Shown here one piece after another: positions 1 through 9,754 of a stretch of DNA of 56,533 nt. Within the stretch, counting starts at the first letter, position 1. Every line of letters starts with the position of its first letter. This DNA is from Bacteroidaceae bacterium (GTDB lineage: Bacteria; Bacteroidota; Bacteroidia; Bacteroidales; Bacteroidaceae), in the NCBI GenBank assembly GCA_017965425.1, contig JAGCPY010000074.1, positions 1 through 56,533 of the forward strand. The letters are read 5' to 3'. The notes below the pieces were generated by a model. It made no database searches, was not told where the DNA came from, and saw only the letters and a program-made list of their open reading frames with translations. The position numbers were made by a program, and so were the translations under genes.

Positions 1-296
1 AAATGGGCAGAGGGTGAAGCGGAAACAAAAACACCTTTCACTTCATCATCGTTCAATATCATGTCAAGCGAGGTGGTTGCTTTCACATGAGGAAACTTCC
101 GTTCTATCAGCCTGGCCTTCCGTTCCGACGTGACGCAGATGTATTTCAGCGGTACGCCGAGGTAGTGGAGCACGGGATAAATATTGGTGAGCGAATGCTG
201 GCCCATGCCAATGAAGGCATATGAACATTGGTACGTTTGGGCAAGGAAACGCTCGGTGCGGAGGCGTTTGTAGCGGTCTATCAATTGCTGTATCAT
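1..296 (-). CDS. Gfo/Idh/MocA-family oxidoreductase, N-terminal part (cut by window edge)
   Basis: About 98 N-terminal residues are visible; the rest lies beyond the left edge. The start ATG (296-294) overlaps the stop of the upstream radical SAM gene as ATGA, so the two are translationally coupled. The visible part shows a Rossmann-type start (FIGMGQHS), then a second strand ending YICVTSE and the stretch GVFVSASPSAH, which matches the NAD(P)-binding half of the Gfo/Idh/MocA dehydrogenases that act on sugars and related polyols. The usual GxGxxG is loose here. Substrate cannot be told. By coupling it belongs to the transcript that starts at the sigma-like promoter module at 1364-1404. Confidence 0.6.
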   Translation of the reverse strand, partial: MIQQLIDRYKRLRTERFLAQTYQCSYAFIGMGQHSLTNIYPVLHYLGVPLKYICVTSERKARLIERKFPHVKATTSLDMILNDDEVKGVFVSASPSAH

Positions 297-1348
297 AATT
301 TCTTGGAGTATTGGTGATATGTTGTGCGCGAGTCTTCTGTCCACTGATATGGGCCGTAAAACTTCTCTATGAGTCGTTTGGGCAGAAGTCGCTCGAAGTT
401 ACGTAGCAATATGATGTCATACTTGCGATGGAAGTTGATCCAGCAGTCGTTGCAGTTCTTCGAGTAGTGGCACTGCGTCTGGCAGGAAGTCACACCGTTG
501 AAAATCTCGTCGAGCGTTTGGCGGTGGATGTTGCCAAGAGTGACGTCAAGATTCTGACAGAGCGGCACGTCACCGTTAGTGTGGATGACGAGGCTGCTCG
601 TAATGCTCTGGCAGCGCAAGCGCAAATACCCATTGCGCCATTGGTCATAGAGTGCCACAAAATCGAAGTTCTCTTGCGTATCATGGATGCTCATGGGAAT
701 CTGACTGATGAAGTCCGAGGCCGTCAGCAGTTCGCTCGTCGTGTCGAAGAAGGCCATTGTCCCATAGATGCCGATGCGCACGTCCACACCATATTGCTTG
801 GCAATGTCAATCACAAAAGCCATATCGTCGAAGTTGTTCCACGGCGACAGACAGAACATCAGCGACAGCGACACCTCGTCCTTCAGTGCCTCCACCACCT
901 GAATCACGCGGTCGTAGCCGTCACGCCCTCGCATCAGTTGGTAAGTCTCGCGGTCACCGTCGAGAGAGACATACAGGTGCCAGGGCTGATAGAGTCGGAC
1001 GACATCAATAACACGACGGGGCGCGAGACAATTAGAAAGCAGTGTGTAGTTCGGGTGATGCTCATGGAACCATGCCATGATTTCTGCCGCCTGTGGGTGC
1101 AGGATAAACTCGCCACCCTCCAGTCCTACGGTTGTCCGTTTGGTGACGCACTTGCTTTGCATAATTCGACGGATGTCATCGAGCGATAGATGTTCCACTT
1201 TTTTCTGCCAGATATTGCAGTGCTTGCAGCGCGACTGGCAGGCGGTCGTCGAGTAAATCATCAGTTGTGACAGCCGCTTGTGTCGTGGCCGAATGATGTT
1301 GTTCAGATAGAGGTAACCATTGTAGGCATAATCGTAAATCGTGTACAT
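293..1348 (-). CDS. Radical SAM protein with SPASM-like C-terminal cysteine cluster
   Basis: A 351-residue cytoplasmic enzyme. The radical SAM motif CxxxCxxC is present as CQSRCKHC at about residues 38-45 and would bind the 4Fe-4S cluster that cleaves S-adenosylmethionine. A GLEGGEF segment follows, which fits the family's GGE motif. A second cysteine set near the C-terminus (C..CQTQCHYSKNCNDC, about 288-302) resembles a SPASM/twitch auxiliary cluster domain. Such enzymes modify peptides or sugars; the substrate is unknown. The stop overlaps the start of a Gfo/Idh/MocA oxidoreductase, so the pair probably acts in one pathway. The leader is short and overlaps an inverted repeat and a promoter module shared with the lipoprotein and the sigma-barrel gene upstream. 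Confidence 0.8.
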   Translation of the reverse strand: MYTIYDYAYNGYLYLNNIIRPRHKRLSQLMIYSTTACQSRCKHCNIWQKKVEHLSLDDIRRIMQSKCVTKRTTVGLEGGEFILHPQAAEIMAWFHEHHPNYTLLSNCLAPRRVIDVVRLYQPWHLYVSLDGDRETYQLMRGRDGYDRVIQVVEALKDEVSLSLMFCLSPWNNFDDMAFVIDIAKQYGVDVRIGIYGTMAFFDTTSELLTASDFISQIPMSIHDTQENFDFVALYDQWRNGYLRLRCQSITSSLVIHTNGDVPLCQNLDVTLGNIHRQTLDEIFNGVTSCQTQCHYSKNCNDCWINFHRKYDIILLRNFERLLPKRLIEKFYGPYQWTEDSRTTYHQYSKKL

Positions 1349-1352
1349 AAAA

Positions 1353-1396
1353 ATTCGTTGCAGTTTCTACTTATAAAGTCTGAAACTGCAACGAAT
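1353..1396 (-). terminator. 15-bp perfect inverted repeat with T-run before the radical SAM gene
   Basis: Arms 1353-1367 and 1382-1396 are perfect reverse complements with a 14-nt loop. On the minus strand the second arm is followed by TTTTT, directly before the ATG at 1348. This has the form of an intrinsic terminator for read-through from the lipoprotein gene. The repeat also surrounds the -10-like part of the promoter module at 1364-1404, so it could instead be an operator. Confidence 0.6.
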
Positions 1397-1404
1397 GACT
1401 GCAC
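1364..1404 (-). promoter_or_regulatory. Sigma-like promoter module, copy 3 (radical SAM gene)
   Basis: On the minus strand this reads GTGCAGTC, 15 nt, then AGACTTTATAAGTAGAAA. It matches the modules before the lipoprotein and sigma-barrel genes in 8 of 8 upstream bases and 13 of 18 downstream bases, with the same spacing. It ends about 16 nt before the radical SAM start codon. It is the weakest of the three copies. Confidence 0.55.
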
Positions 1405-1415
1405 AGAGTGAGTGA

Positions 1416-1970
1416 TTATTTCCTCAATTTACCTATGCTTTCCAGATAGCTTGTGAACGTCTCCCATTGTGCTGCATTCTTCTCACGATTGGCTTTCACC
1501 TCGTCAGTATCGGCGAACTGAAGAGGATAGCAGTCCTGCAGATAATAGTGGCCTTGATTGGGATCAGTAATCACATCATAATGCAAGACAAGGTTAGTGA
1601 ATGTCCTGCTGTCCCAATCACCAACGAAACTGCTGACCACGAACAGGTCATAGTCACCCAAATGAAACTCTATTTCGTGGAAGGGCTGCATACGCTTGTA
1701 GAGCGGTTCGTCCATGTCCTTGAATTTGATTTCTCGGGTGGTCACATTGAACCATTCGATATCATCTTCTGTGAAGAGCATATTCTGCGCATCAGCAACA
1801 GAGCGCGTTTCGGGCTGGCCTACGCCACAGGCATAGAGCGTGTTTTCTACTGGATCAGTCGTAAAAGGCTTTTCCGTTTCGTTGTCATTGCTGCTGCAAG
1901 CAGTAATTGTAACGCCGGCAATAGCTATAGCCAGCATCCATGTGAGAGTGGTGAAATGTTTCATATTCAT
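1416..1970 (-). CDS. Small lipoprotein of unknown function
   Basis: A 184-residue protein with a short hydrophobic signal and a lipobox, ITAC-SSN, cleaved before Cys25, so it should be lipid-anchored in the cell envelope. The mature part begins with an acidic stretch (NDNETEKPF) and has no motif I recognise; it is rich in aromatic and acidic residues (HEIEFHLGDYDLFVV). The gene lies 62 bp downstream of the sigma-barrel gene on the same strand, and its own upstream region carries the same 41-nt module. It could be a target, ligand or partner of the sigma-barrel protein. No enzyme role can be claimed. Confidence 0.75.
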   Translation of the reverse strand: MNMKHFTTLTWMLAIAIAGVTITACSSNDNETEKPFTTDPVENTLYACGVGQPETRSVADAQNMLFTEDDIEWFNVTTREIKFKDMDEPLYKRMQPFHEIEFHLGDYDLFVVSSFVGDWDSRTFTNLVLHYDVITDPNQGHYYLQDCYPLQFADTDEVKANREKNAAQWETFTSYLESIGKLRK

Positions 1971-1989
1971 TTTTTATAATAACGGCTGT

Positions 1990-2030
1990 TCTCTATTATT
2001 ATTGTCCGTCGGATTATGAAAAGACTGCAC
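1990..2030 (-). promoter_or_regulatory. Sigma-like promoter module, copy 2 (lipoprotein gene)
   Basis: On the minus strand: GTGCAGTCTTTT (2030-2019), an 11-nt spacer, then GGACAATAATAATAGAGA (2007-1990). It is identical in length and spacing to the module before the sigma-barrel gene: 12 of 12 and 16 of 18 bases match, while the spacer differs. Selection on the outer parts but not on the spacer is what a two-box promoter would show. Confidence 0.7.
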
Positions 2031-2032
2031 GG

Positions 2033-3754
2033 CTACCATGTAAATCTGATGCCCAGCGGCAAGGAGAAGGTGAACGGATGCTCCGTGCGGTAGGTTTCAA
2101 TGTCAGTCTTCATCGGGATGAAGTACTGCAGGCTTGGCTCTACGAAGAAACCGACGTAGGGCGTCAGGTGGTATTGCAGACCAAGACCGAAGGTCGTAGA
2201 GAACTGCCCCGGTGCACGGAAGTCAGTTTGGTCGCTGGCCTCGTACTGGCCATTCACATAGAAGTCTGAATGGAGAGTGGAACGGACGGGGATTTCGGTC
2301 GTCAGACCGAGACTGCCATAGACGCCCCATCGTTTTCCGTCATACATATTATATATACCCTTCAGGGGGATGCCAAGGTAGTGGATGGTCTGCTGCTCGT
2401 TGATGGTGTTACCATTTGCACCCATCTCAAACTCAGACCTCAGCTGGCTGTAGCTAAGTCCGGTTTCCAGTCCGAAGCGATCATTCAGCTTGTATTTCAA
2501 TGCCAACGAGCATGTGAAAGGCATTCGGTGGTGGCTCGTGCGCAGAATCTTGTCCTCACCAGGTCTGTTGGCATTGTTCAGTGCGATGCGCATGATAACG
2601 CTACGAGTTTGGTTGCTAACGGCATCAGGATGATTTGCCAGATAGACCGCATAGTCCGTCCAGTTGTCAATACTGGTCGGGATTATCGGACTTGGGGATG
2701 GCCCAGGCAGAGACTGAGCAGTTGACGGTGTCGGCTTATAACTGAACGGCTGATTATAACGGTTCTGTTCATCAAGTTGCCCTGCGTATGCCAGCTGTAA
2801 CGACCACTTCTTATCGTTATCAGTGCCGATGATTGACTTGTCGTGTCGCAGGTCGGTGATGTCGTAATGCGGTATCTCCACCTTGCGTATAGTTTTTGTC
2901 GTGTCGGTCGTAATGGTGTCAGGAATCGTCTGGTCCTGGACTATTATATTAGATAAGGTGTCAGACGTGACAGGATCTAAAGCCTGAGCGATGACCGATT
3001 GCAGGGTGTCAGGGGCATTGACAGTGGTACGATGCACTGGCAAATGAACAATCACAGGCTTCTGCGGCTGCTCCGTTTGAGAATCTTTCGTCGATTCTTT
3101 GGGTGTCTCTTTCTGCTTCGCCACAATTGGCTTTTCATCCTTGACCGCAGTATCTCCTTTCCTGAGTAGGAAGAACGTAACAGGAACAAGTAGCAACAGA
3201 AGCCCGGCAACCCAATACTGCTTCATCATCTTGCGCAGCATCTTCTTCGCCCGTGCCAGTTGCGACGATGACGAATGTGGCTCGATGCCCAGCATGGCGG
3301 CAATCTCCTTGTGCGTCATACCCTCGAACACCGACAATCGAAATACCTGCCCATAACCAGCTGGCAGTCTGTCTATCATTCTTACCACCTCGCTTAATGG
3401 CACACCTCTCACGTCCCTTTCCTCGTCCTCAGCGACCATCAATCCCACCTCGCTCGTCTCTTCAAGCGAAACCGTTGGCAATGCCTCCAAATGCTCCTTG
3501 CATTTCGATGCCACGTTCCTTGTGATGGCCATCATCCATTGCTCGGCACGTCGCACATCGCGCAGCCTGTCGAACGAAGTGAAGATAATCACGAAAGCAT
3601 CGTGCAACACATCCTCCACCGTCTGCTCGTCGCTGATATAGCGTCGGCACACGCCCCTCATCCGTTGGGCGTATGCCTTATACAGTTCTCCGAGGGCATC
3701 TGCATCCCCCTGTCTGCATCGTTCTATCAGCCTTGTTATCTCCATCGTAAGCAT
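2033..3754 (-). CDS. ECF sigma factor fused to membrane helix, periplasmic linker and outer-membrane beta-barrel
   Basis: One 573-residue reading frame. Residues about 5-90 are sigma-70 region 2 (CRQGDADALGELYKAY, then EQWMMAITRNVAS); about 120-176 are region 4 with the helix-turn-helix MTHKEIAAMLGIEPHSSSSQ. Residues 181-198 are a membrane helix (WVAGLLLLLVPVTFFLL). About 200-313 are a Lys/Thr/Pro/Asp-rich linker with no predicted fold. About 316-573 alternate like beta-strands, are rich in aromatic residues and end GIRFTW, the terminal aromatic expected of BAM-inserted barrels. The sigma part would sit in the cytoplasm and the barrel in the outer membrane. Bacteroides Dma anti-sigma factors span both membranes in a similar way, but here the sigma factor itself does. 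No separate anti-sigma gene is nearby. ATG at 3745 is an alternative start. Confidence 0.85.
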   Translation of the reverse strand: MLTMEITRLIERCRQGDADALGELYKAYAQRMRGVCRRYISDEQTVEDVLHDAFVIIFTSFDRLRDVRRAEQWMMAITRNVASKCKEHLEALPTVSLEETSEVGLMVAEDEERDVRGVPLSEVVRMIDRLPAGYGQVFRLSVFEGMTHKEIAAMLGIEPHSSSSQLARAKKMLRKMMKQYWVAGLLLLLVPVTFFLLRKGDTAVKDEKPIVAKQKETPKESTKDSQTEQPQKPVIVHLPVHRTTVNAPDTLQSVIAQALDPVTSDTLSNIIVQDQTIPDTITTDTTKTIRKVEIPHYDITDLRHDKSIIGTDNDKKWSLQLAYAGQLDEQNRYNQPFSYKPTPSTAQSLPGPSPSPIIPTSIDNWTDYAVYLANHPDAVSNQTRSVIMRIALNNANRPGEDKILRTSHHRMPFTCSLALKYKLNDRFGLETGLSYSQLRSEFEMGANGNTINEQQTIHYLGIPLKGIYNMYDGKRWGVYGSLGLTTEIPVRSTLHSDFYVNGQYEASDQTDFRAPGQFSTTFGLGLQYHLTPYVGFFVEPSLQYFIPMKTDIETYRTEHPFTFSLPLGIRFTW

Positions 3755-3758
3755 AACA

Positions 3759-3799
3759 TCTCTATTTATATTGTCCTACAACAGAGTAAAAGACTGCAC
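3759..3799 (-). promoter_or_regulatory. Sigma-like promoter module, copy 1 (sigma-barrel gene)
   Basis: On the minus strand: GTGCAGTCTTTT (3799-3788), 11 nt, then GGACAATATAAATAGAGA (3776-3759), ending only 5-14 nt before the two candidate start codons. GTGCAGTC and GGACAATA are 15 nt apart, within the range of ECF -35/-10 spacings. Its presence before its own sigma gene and two more genes suggests autoregulation. Confidence 0.7.
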
Positions 3800-3834
3800 A
3801 GGAAGAACACTTTTTTTACCGAATACGAATAATA

Positions 3835-4557
3835 CTACAATAATCTATACAGGGTGAATGGTAAATTCTTATTGATGATGGCGAGAAAGTGCCAACGCTT
3901 TGTGACGTATACTTTGGATTTCTTCTTGCGAATAGCGGAAATAATCTGATGGGCAACCTTCTCGACGGGCATCACCCAAAACAGGCCATCACCTTTAGCC
4001 ATTACTGTATCAACGAGACCTGGACGAATGTCAGTAACTGTTATGCTACCACCGCTCTTATAAGCTTTCTTACGCAAAGCTTCCATGTAGTTAATCTGGT
4101 AGGCTTTAGTCGCACTATAGGCAGGTGCCATTGGTTCGCCACGTAATTCGCCAACAGAAGTGACTGCTACGAGGTGACCATGACCTTGCTGCTCGAAGAT
4201 GTGGTAGAGTGTATCAATGACAAATGTTCAGCCTCTTACGTTTGTATCAATCGCAGGACATTCCAAAGCATAGTCAAGTGAGGGATTGAGATCGCCAGTA
4301 CCAGAGCATACGATGGCGAGGTCAATGTGTTCCAACTTTGCGCAAAGCGTGTGAATGGCCTGCTCGATTTCTTCTTGTCTGGTAATGTCCGCCGTGGCTG
4401 AGAATGTCGTGTCGGGATGCTCTTGGAGCAGTTCGTCAAGCAGATATGTCCGTCGGCCAACGATGCCCATGCAGTTGCCCTCAGCAGCGTACTTTTCAAA
4501 AAGCGCCCTTCCTATGCCTGAAGTTGCTCCAATGATAATGATGGTTTTCTTGTTCAT
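3835..4557 (-). pseudogene. Short-chain dehydrogenase/reductase interrupted by an in-frame TGA
   Basis: Read through, the frame gives a 240-residue SDR. It has the cofactor motif GATSGIGRA near the N-terminus, a serine in VAVTSVGELRG and the active-site YSATK, and it ends with a hydrophobic tail as in Bacteroidetes SDRs. A single TGA at 4230-4228, after TNVRG, splits it; the frame on both sides is the same and no bases are lost. Homologues usually have an aromatic residue here, so TGG to TGA is the simplest change. The C-terminal half keeps an ATG at 4131 but would lack the cofactor fold. It may be a real nonsense mutation or a base-call error. Confidence 0.75.
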
Positions 4558-4566
4558 TGTTTTTGC

Positions 4567-6102
4567 TTACGATTTAATCCTGTTCTCAATCCATTTCCTT
4601 ATCTCCTTCCCAAACACCTCTTCTGCATAATCTAAAAGAAGGGTTGTAGAGATTATTTCACGTTCAGCCACACCTTGCATGAAGTCGAAGAACTTTTCTT
4701 CGCCTACTTTCTGTGAAAGGTCATATAGCAACAAGGCACCTTTATTATATAGGGCATCGTAAGCTTCAGGAGCATCACGATCAACCTCGTAGATGGGGCA
4801 AGCATGGCGGGCATTTTCGCGGCAGGCTTCTAGATAACAGTCGAAAACGTGCTTGTCAAAATGGCACTTGATGTACCACAGCATGCTGAACTCAGCAAAG
4901 CCTTCGTTGAGCCAGTCTTCCCAACTAAATGTCGGCGCCTTGTTCCACCAGAAATGACCCATTTCGTGGCCAATGGCGGTTTTGAAGTGCTCGTTGAAGC
5001 GTTTCGTCGCATAGGCAATGAAATTTTTGCGGCTGATACCACCACCACGACGTGGCACAACAAGGAATTTCATGTAGTCGTTGCTGGGATTGGTTTTGAA
5101 CAAGCGGGTATAGAATTGCAGTGCCTCTCTGCATGCGACCAACGCAGAGTCGGCATCTGCATCGGCGAAGTCGGTATAGACTACTTCGAATGTACGTCCA
5201 TCACTGGTCATCTTCTTCGATTTGAGTGTTGGCGAGGCCACAATCTGAAGGTCGAAACCTCCCCACGGTTGCAACATTTCCCACTTGTCATCCTTGTATT
5301 TTACAATGCCCGAGCCGCTGACCGTGTAGCCTTCGTTGATGGAAACAGAGACGTTTGCCGTGAAGTCGCGGCTATCGCTGTTGACAGGGAACCATGCTAC
5401 GTAATAGCCCAGTTGCACCCAGTCTTTTTCCATCGAACTCATCCAAATGTCAAGGCTGTCGAGGTTGCAGGTATAGTCGAAGGTGATGCTGCAAATGCCC
5501 TTTTTCTTTGGCACGGTAAGGCGAAGCGGTGCTCCTTGTCGGATGTAGGTGTTAGATGATTTGGCATTAGTGTCGAACGAATATGTCAATTCCTTATTCT
5601 TGCTGCGGATGTGATTGATGGTCGAGTTATTCCAGAGCGTGAAATCAATGCTCTTGCTGTCCTTGAAATCAATCTGTGCCGTTAAAGTCACGGCGAGGGT
5701 CTTTTTCTCCACGTCAATGTCCAATAGAATGTCGTATCGCTTAACGATTGGGGCGTTGGTGTCCTCCACGACCGCTTTCCTGGGATAAATAATTTTCCTC
5801 TTGTCCTCAGTTTCATGCTTGTAAGTACGCATAGAGTCCATAAAGGCCGTCCATCGTGCATCGTTGTGAAGTGCTCTGTAGTCTTCTTCTGTTAAGAAAG
5901 TTGTGTAAGCATATGCATATTGCCTGCCGAACTTCTCTCTGAACAGATTGAGATAGTAAAAGGTACTGTCAGTATCACCAGCCGCCAGTGCCTTGTCAGC
6001 TGCTAACCAATAATCATTGGCCGTTTGTGCCAGTGCGAATGTCGCTGCAGACAGCATGACCAGCATGAGCAGGAATCGTCTGTAGTGTATTTGATGTCTC
6101 AT
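4567..6102 (-). CDS. M1-like zinc metallopeptidase, secreted
   Basis: A 511-residue protein from the ATG at 6102, chosen because it opens a clean signal peptide (MRHQIHYRRFLLMLVMLSAA, cleavage near ALAQ). A longer frame upstream would run into the Rhs fragment. The zinc site HEMGH (about residue 378) is followed by NEGFAEF, giving the HExxH-x18-E layout of the gluzincin M1 peptidases. The usual GAMEN-type substrate motif is not obvious; GGGISRKNF occupies a similar place. It is shorter than full M1 aminopeptidases, so it may be a periplasmic peptidase with a reduced C-terminus. It is followed after 9 bp by the SDR pseudogene. Confidence 0.75.
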   Translation of the reverse strand: MRHQIHYRRFLLMLVMLSAATFALAQTANDYWLAADKALAAGDTDSTFYYLNLFREKFGRQYAYAYTTFLTEEDYRALHNDARWTAFMDSMRTYKHETEDKRKIIYPRKAVVEDTNAPIVKRYDILLDIDVEKKTLAVTLTAQIDFKDSKSIDFTLWNNSTINHIRSKNKELTYSFDTNAKSSNTYIRQGAPLRLTVPKKKGICSITFDYTCNLDSLDIWMSSMEKDWVQLGYYVAWFPVNSDSRDFTANVSVSINEGYTVSGSGIVKYKDDKWEMLQPWGGFDLQIVASPTLKSKKMTSDGRTFEVVYTDFADADADSALVACREALQFYTRLFKTNPSNDYMKFLVVPRRGGGISRKNFIAYATKRFNEHFKTAIGHEMGHFWWNKAPTFSWEDWLNEGFAEFSMLWYIKCHFDKHVFDCYLEACRENARHACPIYEVDRDAPEAYDALYNKGALLLYDLSQKVGEEKFFDFMQGVAEREIISTTLLLDYAEEVFGKEIRKWIENRIKS

Positions 6103-6121: not shown

Positions 6122-6697
6122 TTATTGGGGAAGGGTAATCCTGAAGTGGGTGGCGGCCAGATAGCCGCCGTCAAAGTGATAATCGCATTCACGGGAAGAG
6201 ATGGTGCTGTTGGAGGACAACACCTTGACCTTCATGTTCTCCACATAATCCACCGAATCTACCGACATCGTCTGCGCTGCCGTCAGGTTCAGTGTCTCGC
6301 CATAGCCTACCGAAAGGCCATCCACCGCCGTGGTGTGTTTCTCACGCAGCTTCCGCCCGTCGGTGGCATAGACGTACTCCGTCACGTTGCCGTTGGTGAA
6401 CTGCACGCGGGTGGGATGCCCCAGGAGGTCGTAGTCGATGAGTGCGATGCCCTTGTTCTTGTCCTGGGTGAGGTCACCCGCAGCGTTGTAGTCATACTCC
6501 GTCGTACTGCCCGCACCGTCAACGAACTCGAACGAGCCGTCATAGACCACCGGGGTGACATAGTCCTGAACGGCCGCAAGGCGGTTGCCCGTGTAGCTGT
6601 AGGTCAGCTGGTCCATGTTGCCGAATCCCGTGTAGGTGTTACCCGTGCGGGTGAGGGACGTGATGGCGCTGTTGCGGTTGTAGGTGATGGTTCCCAT
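6122..6697 (-). pseudogene. Orphan fragment of Rhs repeat/core region
   Basis: A 191-residue piece running from ITYNRNSAITSLTRTGN to HFRITLP is nearly identical, also at the DNA level, to an internal part of the large Rhs protein encoded at 9751-13059. Homology begins near 6688 and stops near 6127, where the frame ends in ITLPQ. It lacks a signal peptide, the conserved core end (YDYGARRYDP) and any toxin tip. It is best read as the remnant of a displaced rhs 3' end left by recombination between repeats. Whether it is translated is unknown; it could serve as recombination donor. Confidence 0.8.
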
Positions 6698-6734
6698 GTG
6701 AGTATGTTATATATAACTCATATTGTTACGACAA

Positions 6735-7376
6735 TTATTTTTTTACGAGAAAGAACAGAAGGATAAAGGCAATGAATACATCTAATAATACAATGGTTAT
6801 GAAATTTTTATCGATGAATTTACGAATGGAGCCAACTATTAAGTCTTGAATATCTCTGTGATACAATCCGACCTTCGATAGAACATTTTGTTCAAATGAC
6901 CTTTGAATGGCTTCCATCCTTTCTTTTGAGGGTTTAGGACCACAGTCTTTGTCTGATAGTTGATAAAAATGATATCCGTCACAATAATCATCAACATTGG
7001 GAAACTGGTCCAGATCTGCAACCTGTTTGATAGTCACTATATTTTTACCATAGGCCCTCAAGCCCACAATTTCGAGATAACAATTCACGTCTTTCAGATA
7101 CAAGAAAGACGATAGAATATAGTCACCATAATAACTTAAGGAGGTATAACTATATAGATAATTCTCTTTAATAGAATCAGGCTGATACAATAAAGAGGTA
7201 TCTCCTTTGGCTAAGTCCTCTAATTTATCCCTTAGTTCCACTTGGTCCATGTCAGGAGTTACATAAGCGTATCGACGCGGAGAGGGACCATAAAGCCACA
7301 AGAATATGAAGAAAAACGTCCAACCGATAACCACAAAAAGGGATAATACGACAACTCGTACAGATTTTGGTTTCAT
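6735..7376 (-). CDS. Two-helix membrane protein in the Rhs locus, possible immunity protein
   Basis: A 213-residue protein with one hydrophobic helix near the N-terminus (VVVLSLFVVIGWTFFFIFLW) and one at the C-terminus (FITIVLLDVFIAFILLFFLV). The region between, about 150 residues, is therefore most likely periplasmic. No family is recognised. Its start overlaps the stop of the ankyrin gene by 4 bp (7373-7376), so it is translationally coupled to it. The base composition is clearly more AT-rich than the Rhs parts, as is usual for exchanged toxin/immunity cargo. It could be a second immunity protein or a partner of the ankyrin protein; this is inferred from position only. Confidence 0.6.
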   Translation of the reverse strand: MKPKSVRVVVLSLFVVIGWTFFFIFLWLYGPSPRRYAYVTPDMDQVELRDKLEDLAKGDTSLLYQPDSIKENYLYSYTSLSYYGDYILSSFLYLKDVNCYLEIVGLRAYGKNIVTIKQVADLDQFPNVDDYCDGYHFYQLSDKDCGPKPSKERMEAIQRSFEQNVLSKVGLYHRDIQDLIVGSIRKFIDKNFITIVLLDVFIAFILLFFLVKK

Positions 7377-8203
7377 TGTCCACCTCCTTTCTCCGTATGG
7401 TTAAAATAGAAGTTAAGGACTTCTTGTTTCAGGGAATCCTCTTTGGGAGTTTGATATTTAGAATCCCGTAAAAGGTCAAATAAAGTACACTTCTTTCGTC
7501 TGTGACACCCCAGCATCTCAACCTGTGGAAAAGAGAAGTCTAAATCGGCTCCACATGAAATAACCAAATAATGCACCAATTCTATTTCTTTACGTTCTAT
7601 TGCATCCCGCAATAAATTGTAATTGTCACATACAAGATTCACATCCGTACGTTCATCTGCCATTAATCTCTTAACATATGGGTAATGCCCGATACGTGCA
7701 GCAGCGACTATTGGTAGATACGAGCGTCGCTCAAAAGGATCTTGTGTTAACAGATTCGGATCTGCTCCGGCATCGAGAAGTTCCGAAATCATGGATATTA
7801 TATCACACGTATCTCCCCAAGTTTCCCAATCTGGCCGTACTGCAGCAAAAACCAAGGGTGTTGTGCCTCTTTGAGAGACATAATTAGGATTAGCCCCATT
7901 CTCTAATAAGGCTTTAAAGGCATGTGGCTTATAGTTTTGTATCGTATATTGGAGTAGGGAGCAACCAAAGAACCTATCAGGAGTATCCACGTCTATCTCT
8001 GGATGCTCCTGCAGATATTGCACTATTTTGACAGAATCATCAGCTTTAACCAATCTGGAGAGTTCCTCAACGGCAGTGTCGTTAAAAACTTTACGTTGAT
8101 AAAGCGTAGGCTGATGTTGCAAAGAATCCCACATATCATAGATTGCAGGTGACGCAATCCACCATAAGAACCACAAAGCTATATATGATATGAAATGCCT
8201 CAT
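7373..8203 (-). CDS. Ankyrin-repeat protein with N-terminal membrane signal, probable immunity protein
   Basis: A 276-residue protein. Residues 5-25 are hydrophobic (ISYIALWFLWWIASPAIY) and act as a signal anchor or signal peptide. Ankyrin repeats follow: SLLQYTIQN.. ALLENGANPNYVSQRGTTPL, then LLDAGADPNLL and LPIVAAARIGHYPYVKRLM. The repeats should face the periplasm. The gene starts 3 bp after the stop of the protein that carries the lipase tip and overlaps the next gene. Genes placed directly after an Rhs tip are normally cognate immunity genes, and ankyrin proteins have been linked to lipase effectors, so it probably blocks that lipase. The low GC of the gene fits horizontal exchange. Confidence 0.7.
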   Translation of the reverse strand: MRHFISYIALWFLWWIASPAIYDMWDSLQHQPTLYQRKVFNDTAVEELSRLVKADDSVKIVQYLQEHPEIDVDTPDRFFGCSLLQYTIQNYKPHAFKALLENGANPNYVSQRGTTPLVFAAVRPDWETWGDTCDIISMISELLDAGADPNLLTQDPFERRSYLPIVAAARIGHYPYVKRLMADERTDVNLVCDNYNLLRDAIERKEIELVHYLVISCGADLDFSFPQVEMLGCHRRKKCTLFDLLRDSKYQTPKEDSLKQEVLNFYFNHTEKGGGQ

Positions 8204-8206
8204 TTT

Positions 8207-9754
8207 TTATTCATCTTTCAAGAGTGTACTAATCAATTTAAGATAAGTCATAGTATGATAGGCTGCGCTTATGGCAGGCCTTGAGACACATGGGAATATA
8301 CTTAATGGTACAGATGGTAAATATGATATGCGTCCCTCTGCCCTTAGTCCTATTAATGCCTGGCTGTTATTTAAAAATTCGTTATGGACCACATAGGCGG
8401 TGATATCTGCTTTATTATTAAGTTGTAAAGCTTGTTTTGTTTGCGCACTTAAACCTGCTGCATTAAATGTAATAGCTGGATCACCTGTTTTCAGGGCGTT
8501 GGCACTGGCTAAACCGCCACCTAAAGAATGACCCAAATAAGTCAATTCTTGGTCTCCTAATATAGACTTTATTTGTACTGCCGTTTCCACAGATTGTCTA
8601 TATTGTTCTGAATCCCCTGTTAATTGCTTAAAATCTTGTTTCCAATCTTCTAAGGATGTTAGATCCGTTCCAGCTGTGGCATAAACATATTCTGAAAAGC
8701 CGCCATTTTCATTCTTCCGTCCGTATATTGCAGATTTGAATCCATTGCTGTTAGGGAGAGTCAAGCCCCAGTCTTCAGGATCAATCCAGGTCCAATCTCC
8801 TGGTAAATCTTTTTTACCTGGATCATAAACGTCATCCGCCATTGCTAAAGCTTCTATCCTTCTAGGTCGCATCCCAGCCAAATCCACATACCTCACTGGG
8901 TTCCCCGCACAATAGAGATACGGATTCAAGTGAGGATAATCTTCGCAGAGCGGATCCACCTGCGTGAACAGCCCGATGGCAGGGTCATAGCGGCGGGCAC
9001 CGTAGTCGTACCAGAAGAGGCCGTGCATACGGTCCAGCTCCTTCTTCAAGTGTGAAGCGTCGCCGAGCGCCGAGCGCCCATTGTACCCGAACTTCTGATA
9101 GCCCTGGTGTGTGTTGTTGTTACCCCGTGGGCCGTCGTAATATATTTTTAAATATCGCTCTTCCGATTTTAGGAAGACTGTGTCATTGAGAAGATAAATA
9201 TCATCAACACTAAAAATGTTTCTACGTTTTAAATCTGTACTATATATCAGGGATATCTTGTCTTTATCCATTTGCCAAACTTCTATCATCTTTGTTCCAT
9301 CTGTAGCATCTCCCTCAACGCATAAGATCTTATCTTCATAAAATAAGGGTTCACCAGCTAAACTGTCAATCTCTCCTGTTTTAGGGTTAATCATATAGAA
9401 TTGCTCATAATTCCAATATAGATATCCCTTAATAATAATCCAAGATTTATAAGAACCCTCAACAAAATATTCCTCCTCATTTTCAATTTTGGAATCCTTA
9501 AATTTATACGTTTTGTTCGCGCATTTAACTTTAATAGTCCTATTCTTTTTAGCAATCGGAGCAGATGACTCATATGATGAATAGACATTTTTTTGCCTAA
9601 TAAAACGAAGTGAGTCTGTCTCAAGAATCTGAACGGGATAATCTGGATATGCCTTTACGGGCATCTCTATCCATTTCAAACTATCAATGCTGGCAGATAA
9701 TCCTATTTGATAGAATAAAATAAAGAGTCCAATAACAAAGAGGAATCTTTTCAT
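8207..9754 (-). CDS. Chimera: signal-peptide protein (possible immunity) fused to displaced Rhs core and lipase toxin tip
   Basis: A 515-residue protein in three parts. Residues 1 to about 205 start with a signal peptide (MKRFLFVIGLFILFYQIGLSA) and form an AT-rich, all-beta-looking domain of unknown family. Residues about 206-291 are Rhs core, including WYDYGARRYDPAIG and NPYLYCAGNPVRYVDLAG, which end the core. Residues about 292-515 are a new tip with the nucleophile elbow GHSLGGG (Ser near 408) and a late His (HTMTYL, near 500), as in class 3 lipases. The DNA homology to the Rhs gene at 9751-13059 begins abruptly near 9140. The start overlaps the stop of that gene by 4 bp, the place where its immunity gene should be. 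Confidence 0.75.
   Translation of the reverse strand: MKRFLFVIGLFILFYQIGLSASIDSLKWIEMPVKAYPDYPVQILETDSLRFIRQKNVYSSYESSAPIAKKNRTIKVKCANKTYKFKDSKIENEEEYFVEGSYKSWIIIKGYLYWNYEQFYMINPKTGEIDSLAGEPLFYEDKILCVEGDATDGTKMIEVWQMDKDKISLIYSTDLKRRNIFSVDDIYLLNDTVFLKSEERYLKIYYDGPRGNNNTHQGYQKFGYNGRSALGDASHLKKELDRMHGLFWYDYGARRYDPAIGLFTQVDPLCEDYPHLNPYLYCAGNPVRYVDLAGMRPRRIEALAMADDVYDPGKKDLPGDWTWIDPEDWGLTLPNSNGFKSAIYGRKNENGGFSEYVYATAGTDLTSLEDWKQDFKQLTGDSEQYRQSVETAVQIKSILGDQELTYLGHSLGGGLASANALKTGDPAITFNAAGLSAQTKQALQLNNKADITAYVVHNEFLNNSQALIGLRAEGRISYLPSVPLSIFPCVSRPAISAAYHTMTYLKLISTLLKDE

Follow-up and report, generated by a model that had tools for sequence, protein, structure and literature searches.

The stretch analysed here, hereafter called the window, is the 56,533 nt of contig JAGCPY010000074.1 from a Bacteroidaceae bacterium, and all coordinates are positions on its forward strand. 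It encodes a protein in which an extracytoplasmic function (ECF) sigma domain and an outer-membrane beta-barrel form a single chain, and a 41-nt module precedes the gene for this protein as well as a lipoprotein gene and a radical SAM gene that follow it. We propose that the fused sigma factor uses the module as its ECF promoter, that the tethered sigma factor is released to act on it, and that one of the promoters belongs to a hairpin which locks the cargo enzyme gene; for this explanation as a whole we would put the probability at roughly 75%. The three copies of the module are the following.

3759..3799, minus strand: promoter copy 1, before the sigma-barrel gene itself (self promoter), with its -35 box at 3792-3799 and its -10 box, GGACAATA, at 3769-3776; based on sequence, shuffle and consensus scans, and relatives
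1990..2030, minus strand: promoter copy 2, before the lipoprotein gene; based on sequence, shuffle and consensus scans, and relatives
1364..1404, minus strand: promoter copy 3, before the radical SAM gene and within a hairpin; based on sequence, a consensus scan and relatives

The three copies had been put forward in a sequence-only reading of the window, and their positions and match counts were reproduced exactly: the first 12 bases of copies 1 and 2 are the same, as are 16 of their last 18, and copy 3 matches copy 1 at 8/8 and 13/18 bases. An exact match to the two-box pattern is found at two places in the window and in none of 100 dinucleotide shuffles. When the source genome (3,728,598 bases scanned; 95.39% complete) was searched with this pattern minus its leading G, there were two matches at zero mismatches, both being copies 1 and 2, none at one mismatch and two at two mismatches, while allowing up to three mismatches gave 88 matches versus 70 for the reversed pattern, which is near background. 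Copy 3 differs by three bases in the boxes and therefore would not stand out by itself; its reality rests on comparison, and a chance match could be rejected only once relatives had been compared. A looser consensus, RTGCAGTCWTT-N11..13-GACWWTA, defined after the relatives were seen, has exactly three matches in the source genome, all at this locus. Across 61 genomes of the genus, including the source genome, it has 20 matches in 12 genomes, every one of which adjoins a homologue of the sigma-barrel fusion, and the reversed pattern has none in the same 61. The sequence-only reading had hoped for additional sites before envelope genes; the consensus scan yielded no further site anywhere else in the 3.73-Mb genome. 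RTGCAGTCWTT alone is present at 12 sites, and the nine outside the window were considered as further regulon members and rejected, six being located inside open reading frames (ORFs) of at least 100 aa and three (loci L117, L126 and L128) having no such -10 box. L126 and L128, on contigs C78 and C88, are cut by contig ends and have GTGCAGTCTTTCTGCGTAACGAGAAAAA in common, perhaps a repeat element and not this promoter. Two general scans added little: positions 1-6000 contained nothing at Rfam gathering scores, and an E. coli-type promoter consensus was found 12 times in positions 1-4600 versus 5.9 times in shuffles, a count that was not used, as promoters of Bacteroidetes differ from that consensus.

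At E <= 1e-20, 166 of 301 genomes of the family contain a match to the sigma-barrel protein, with sigma-only and barrel-only matches counted. Named records exist for 26 loci, the closest being Prevotella and Prevotellaceae metagenome-assembled genomes, several of them rumen derived according to their isolate names; L076, among the 26, amounts to no more than a 21% sigma match. Within the closest clade, the module is present again at equivalent positions. For the main clade, exact duplicates were removed and close relatives kept, and a module was accepted if it deviated at no more than one base from a form in a set of -10 boxes, which had been enlarged once the relatives were known. Counted in this way, 39 of 40 evaluable loci have the module ahead of the sigma-barrel gene (the miss being L073), 31 of 35 have it no more than 150 nt past that gene (misses in L029, L037, L038 and L063), and all 30 loci with the radical SAM gene in view have it before the latter. 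In five of the 31 loci (L032, L034, L035, L050 and L062), the downstream module is already the radical SAM promoter. We consider it virtually certain that the 41-nt stretch is a real promoter module. As a separate observation, L022/L055 have, past the lipoprotein gene, a copy 3 that is altered from the -10 box onward, and the available stretch contains another ORF and no radical SAM start. Furthermore, many promoters, self promoters included, contain a small inverted repeat (CTAT..ATAG or TCTAT..ATAGA) made up of the -10 box and a conserved tail, as at window positions 3759-3776.

The assignment of the module to the fused sigma factor is supported by the way in which the two vary together, a relationship that the sequence-only reading had missed when it proposed that the linked sigma-barrel protein reads an ECF-type promoter here. 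In distant fused loci, the -35 box stays near RTGCAGTCTTT while the -10 box shifts from GGAC to TATC or xCTC, and the new -10 form is usually common to the self and cargo promoters of the same locus. We examined 52 loci, 40 of which had both promoters; the pair test excluded the 12 that lacked one (L031, with a misassigned start, and L033, with an internal stop, among them). The 4-base -10 cores, picked among three offsets, are identical in 26 of the 40 pairs. With loci reduced to 16 lineages whose sigma domains are less than 70% identical, 47 of 64 core bases match between self and cargo promoters, versus a permuted mean of 37.4 (P = 0.0033), and an 8-mer version of the test gave a P value below 5e-5. 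Between the same promoters, the -35 boxes are 92% alike and the spacers only 27% alike, and the latter speaks against a recently duplicated promoter. In most lineages, the sigma region-2 loop tracks the -10 class, with [R/K]AE.W accompanying GGAC, [R/K]F..W accompanying TATC and KLEGW accompanying xCTC, and the region-4 helix is nearly constant, like the -35 box. Several loci do not conform and count against the proposed pairing: self and cargo promoters have different cores in L085, L087, L090 and L099, a single base separates them in L050 and L101, scores under the offset rule are low for L080 and L102, and the clade L098-L101 breaks the loop rule by combining an L-type loop with mostly TATC-type promoters. 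These exceptions aside, the same two-box promoter precedes the sigma gene and its targets and co-varies with the sigma factor. It is thus very probable, judging from sequence, that the module is read by the fused sigma factor, with region 4 predicted to read the -35 box (RTGCAGTC[T/A]TT) and region 2 the -10 box (GGAC[A/T][A/T]TA); the transcription starts and the sigma dependence are predictions.

Copy 3 was taken by the sequence-only reading to be a promoter, and this is supported; what had escaped it is that this copy is embedded in a conserved hairpin with two arms.

1382..1396, minus strand: left hairpin arm, which is the promoter spacer of copy 3; based on complementarity, alignment and folding
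1353..1367, minus strand: right hairpin arm, with 4 nt between its end and the start codon of the radical SAM gene (1346-1348); based on complementarity, alignment and folding

Among 30 nonduplicate main-clade rows, 25 have a compact hairpin, three have arms split by an insertion (L039, L040 and L065) and two have none. In 16 aligned rows, 98.2% of cells are paired, a value that none of 500 shuffles reached and that compares with at most 45% in slid controls. The covariation score was likewise reached by none of the 500 shuffles, and 10 cells change on both sides, which no shuffle matched; some of the changes are shared by descent. The predicted fold has an energy of -34.6 kcal/mol (z -6.4) for read-through RNA versus -1.9 kcal/mol for RNA begun near the expected start. 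Complementarity between the -35/spacer segment and the start region has a z-score below -2 in 23 of 27 scored radical SAM promoters (17/18 in the main clade and 6/9 elsewhere; z-scores of related loci are not independent), with two further promoters being too short to score, and in 6 of 15 methyltransferase promoters. The same is true of only 1 of 38 self promoters and 1 of 17 lipoprotein promoters, controls that were hand-picked from loci with a settled start, so that pooled values are 29/42 for enzyme promoters versus 2/55 for self and lipoprotein promoters. Other lineages have a similar hairpin geometry with different arm sequences; the -10 box falls either within the inner stem or in the stretch separating the two arms. 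Of the 14 folds shown, 11 pair the start codon at least in part. It may also be mentioned that the radical SAM genes looked at start with ATGTAY and the methyltransferase genes mostly with ATGCAR, both of which can pair with the UGCA of the -35 box.

Since copy 3 lies inside the hairpin, messages that read through from upstream should hide the radical SAM start codon, and given the position of the promoter, RNA begun there is predicted to be without the left arm and would be translated. The cargo would in this way be made only while the sigma factor is free. From the modelled folds, we give an even chance to the hairpin being such a lock against the translation of read-through messages. The enzyme promoter would then double as the left arm over the start codon of its own gene, structure and placement being kept while the arms turn over, which we regard as evenly poised as well. 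Several observations are unfavourable to a lock. The hairpin is lost in L031, in which the right arm is truncated, and in L074; double-sided changes affect only 3 of the 14 pairs, and 59 of 500 shuffles also reach three. Nine of the 15 methyltransferase promoters have no significant hairpin, it is not significant in L080 and L082 and falls just short of the cut in L092 (z -1.99), and 3 of the 14 folds (L084, L085 and L087) leave the start codon unpaired. Fold-back protection of this kind operates in the IS10 transposase gene and in phage T4 gene e, where only RNA begun upstream carries the left arm that hides the start. These cases may serve as an analogy; IS10 is a transposon and gene e belongs to a phage, whereas here the hairpins are found at chromosomal enzyme genes of a sigma regulon and differ in arm sequence.

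The copy 3 hairpin could instead be an ordinary terminator of the upstream gene that shares DNA with the promoter, and indeed the window stem is followed by UUUUU and a terminator would also insulate the gene. We find this doubtful: the U-tract is conserved in only 6 of the 16 aligned rows, counted as a run of at least five T at the stem end, and the arms extend to the start codon region. A terminator scan did not list the hairpin, but its loop limit of 8 would have missed it regardless.

The fused protein itself has the following features.

2033..3754, minus strand: gene for the fused sigma/transmembrane/tether/outer-membrane barrel protein, 573 aa; based on Pfam, hydropathy, PDB sequence matches and AlphaFold
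3236..3685, minus strand: ECF sigma domain, with region 2 at residues 24-82 and region 4 at residues 122-173 (Pfam PF04542 and PF08281)
3164..3214, minus strand: transmembrane helix, approximately residues 181-197, directly after sigma region 4; based on hydropathy
2036..2545, minus strand: outer-membrane beta-barrel, approximately residues 404-573; PF13568 and PF13505 above cut-off

The sigma domain is of the ECF type, as PF04542, PF08281 and PF07638 score above cut-off and no region-3 family was listed, and its PDB sequence and profile matches are ECF sigma factors such as AlgU, SigH, SigW and SigE. The AlphaFold model has a mean predicted local distance difference test (pLDDT) score of 51; the barrel is fairly confident (approximately 70 to 88 over residues 361-530, low past 551) and the rest is poor. 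Foldseek returned sigma-E and AlgU at E values below 0.001 and, for the barrel, weak matches to OmpA, Ail and OmpX-type barrels (E 0.007-0.09). The tether was judged from low pLDDT alone, and the model has one helix, residues 164-199, at the transmembrane segment in its low-confidence part. What weakens the membrane topology is that the transmembrane helix is based on hydropathy and that the model has low confidence in the sigma/transmembrane part. A transmembrane segment directly after region 4 is present in 26 of 27 readable fused proteins, the exception being L099, with none above the hydropathy cut; L031 was unreadable owing to its misassigned start, and L098 and L104 have an additional hydrophobic segment upstream, perhaps because their starts were placed too early. 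One fusion gene sequence, found in L033/L066, contains a single internal TAG stop and is a broken or erroneous copy.

This architecture is already in print. In Bacteroides thetaiotaomicron, Dma3 (dma3 locus, bt_2778-2779) carries a sigma domain at the N terminus of a Dma-type chain, and the passages of PMC13088901 (2026) that describe it state that very little else is known about Dma3. The window protein has the Dma-type transmembrane helix, long tether and C-terminal barrel (from hydropathy, PF13568 and the model) and an N-terminal sigma domain, which makes it Dma3-like by the definition given there, the likeness being one of described architecture alone. The sequence-only reading named a sigma-barrel protein and had not recognized the known kind. 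The N-terminal anti-sigma domain of Dma proteins is absent: region 4 passes straight into the transmembrane segment, whereas in 23 split pairs the partner of the sigma factor has 41 to 80 residues ahead of its transmembrane segment. In an unrooted tree of one bacterial family, fused (51) and split (23) sigma domains separate with support of 100/99, and a 62-row tree agrees; this is compatible with a single fusion event.

We envisage the sigma factor as the cytoplasmic head of a single chain that crosses the inner membrane right after region 4 and ends in the outer-membrane barrel. With no separate anti-sigma domain in the chain, tethering itself would keep the sigma factor inactive, and a signal at the barrel or the outer membrane would lead to cleavage, for example by a site-2 protease, upon which the released sigma factor would transcribe its own gene together with the lipoprotein gene and the pair encoding the radical SAM enzyme and the oxidoreductase. 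The genome has a site-2 protease gene, as do 14 of 14 control genomes, so its presence does not discriminate. We lean towards the view that the sigma factor is inactive while tethered and is freed by cleavage. Membrane-bound one-component activators work from the membrane without cleavage, and a tethered sigma factor might do likewise, given that the sigma-transmembrane junction requires no partner protein. This seems to us rather unlikely, as region 4 abuts the membrane, which should hinder the binding of polymerase and of the -35 box, and as IutY (ECF243), a fused sigma/anti-sigma protein, is freed by Prc/RseP proteolysis (PMC8999054).

Two further alternatives concern the promoter DNA. The inverted repeat at promoter 3 could act as DNA, either as the operator of a dimeric repressor or as a cruciform; a DNA palindrome would give equal compensatory changes, and the -10 box is placed between the arms. 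The varying arm spacing (14 to approximately 20 nt, and more than 60 nt in L039, L040 and L065) and the differing arm sequences among lineages make this improbable. That another regulator binds the module, or that the module is a dispersed repeat, is very improbable despite its long conserved tail (TAGAGA) past the -10 box and the CTAT..ATAG repeat of -10 box and tail that can be read in relatives' promoters, because the -10 box shifts with the region-2 loop in most lineages while the -35 box stays with region 4, and because the looser consensus has no match elsewhere in the genome. The sequence-only reading had named a dispersed repeat without relation to gene starts as a case that would undo it; the genome scans, the placement at genes in relatives and the adjacency to fusions do not bear this out.

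Downstream of the fusion, the fused sigma factor is predicted to control three genes.

1416..1970, minus strand: lipoprotein, 184 aa, with a fold without match; homologue in L080
293..1348, minus strand: radical SAM/SPASM enzyme, 351 aa; PF04055 and PF13186
3..299, minus strand: start of a Gfo/Idh/MocA-like oxidoreductase that overlaps the radical SAM gene and is cut by the contig end; its L051 homologue is PF01408

The lipoprotein had no Pfam match, NCBIfam matches only far below cut-off, no PDB sequence match and no fold match below an E value of 1 (best, 1.2), and a homologue lies within the same cluster of L080, which belongs to another fused-sigma clade. The oxidoreductase fragment had no NCBIfam match at an E value of 1e-5. 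In other clades, as judged from N-terminal sequence, the gene after the fusion often encodes a radical SAM enzyme, commonly with an oxidoreductase gene behind it, or a methyltransferase; Pfam searches with eight proteins confirmed the enzyme type of the seven enzymes tested. In L097, a lipoprotein gene directly follows the fusion, and in some loci (e.g., L029, L048 and L090) no such cargo gene is located right after it or it is not resolved. Cargo types recur across clades with different -10 classes. The regulon that was originally suggested, in which the sigma factor drives its own gene along with those for the lipoprotein, the radical SAM enzyme and the oxidoreductase, agrees with these tests, and it is highly likely that the regulon is local to the locus.

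The Das1/Dma1, Das2/Dma2 and EcfO/Reo systems resemble the window protein in their transmembrane segment, long tether and outer-membrane barrel (Dma), as far as they are described in the cited passages, which refer to the Das sigma factors as ECF21 (PMC13088901). They consist of separate sigma and anti-sigma genes with a cytosolic anti-sigma domain, whereas the window-type fusions are without that stretch. According to the same sources, deletion of the anti-sigma factor raises expression of the sigma factor's own operon for das2 and of NigD-type lipoproteins for Das1 and EcfO (PMC13088901 and PMC13114119); EcfO and Das1 thus control lipoproteins, like the regulon predicted here. IutY, SCO4117 (ECF52) and others combine, as in the window, a sigma factor and a membrane regulator in one chain, IutY being fused to its anti-sigma factor, but no outer-membrane barrel appears in the relevant passages of PMC8999054.

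Two neighbouring features deserve mention. At 3835-4557 on the minus strand, a short-chain dehydrogenase-like gene is split into two ORFs (4228-4557 and 3835-4131), owing to a frameshift or an assembly error, and L057 has one 248-aa ORF upstream of its fusion. ORFs at 6122-9754 on the minus strand resemble, by eye, fragments of an RHS/YD-repeat protein, with small proteins adjoining.

In summary, the sigma-fused Dma type gains a predicted promoter code and a predicted regulon, consisting of a lipoprotein and of either a radical SAM enzyme with a Gfo/Idh oxidoreductase or a methyltransferase. The comparison suggests a route from a sigma/anti-sigma pair to a single chain, in which the anti-sigma domain was lost and tethering came to be relied on, and the family provides naturally matched sets of -10 boxes and sigma loops. 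The hairpin promoter, if true, would be a compact stop on leaky expression: the sensor gene could be basally transcribed without leaking enzyme, and only promoter-initiated RNA would be translated.

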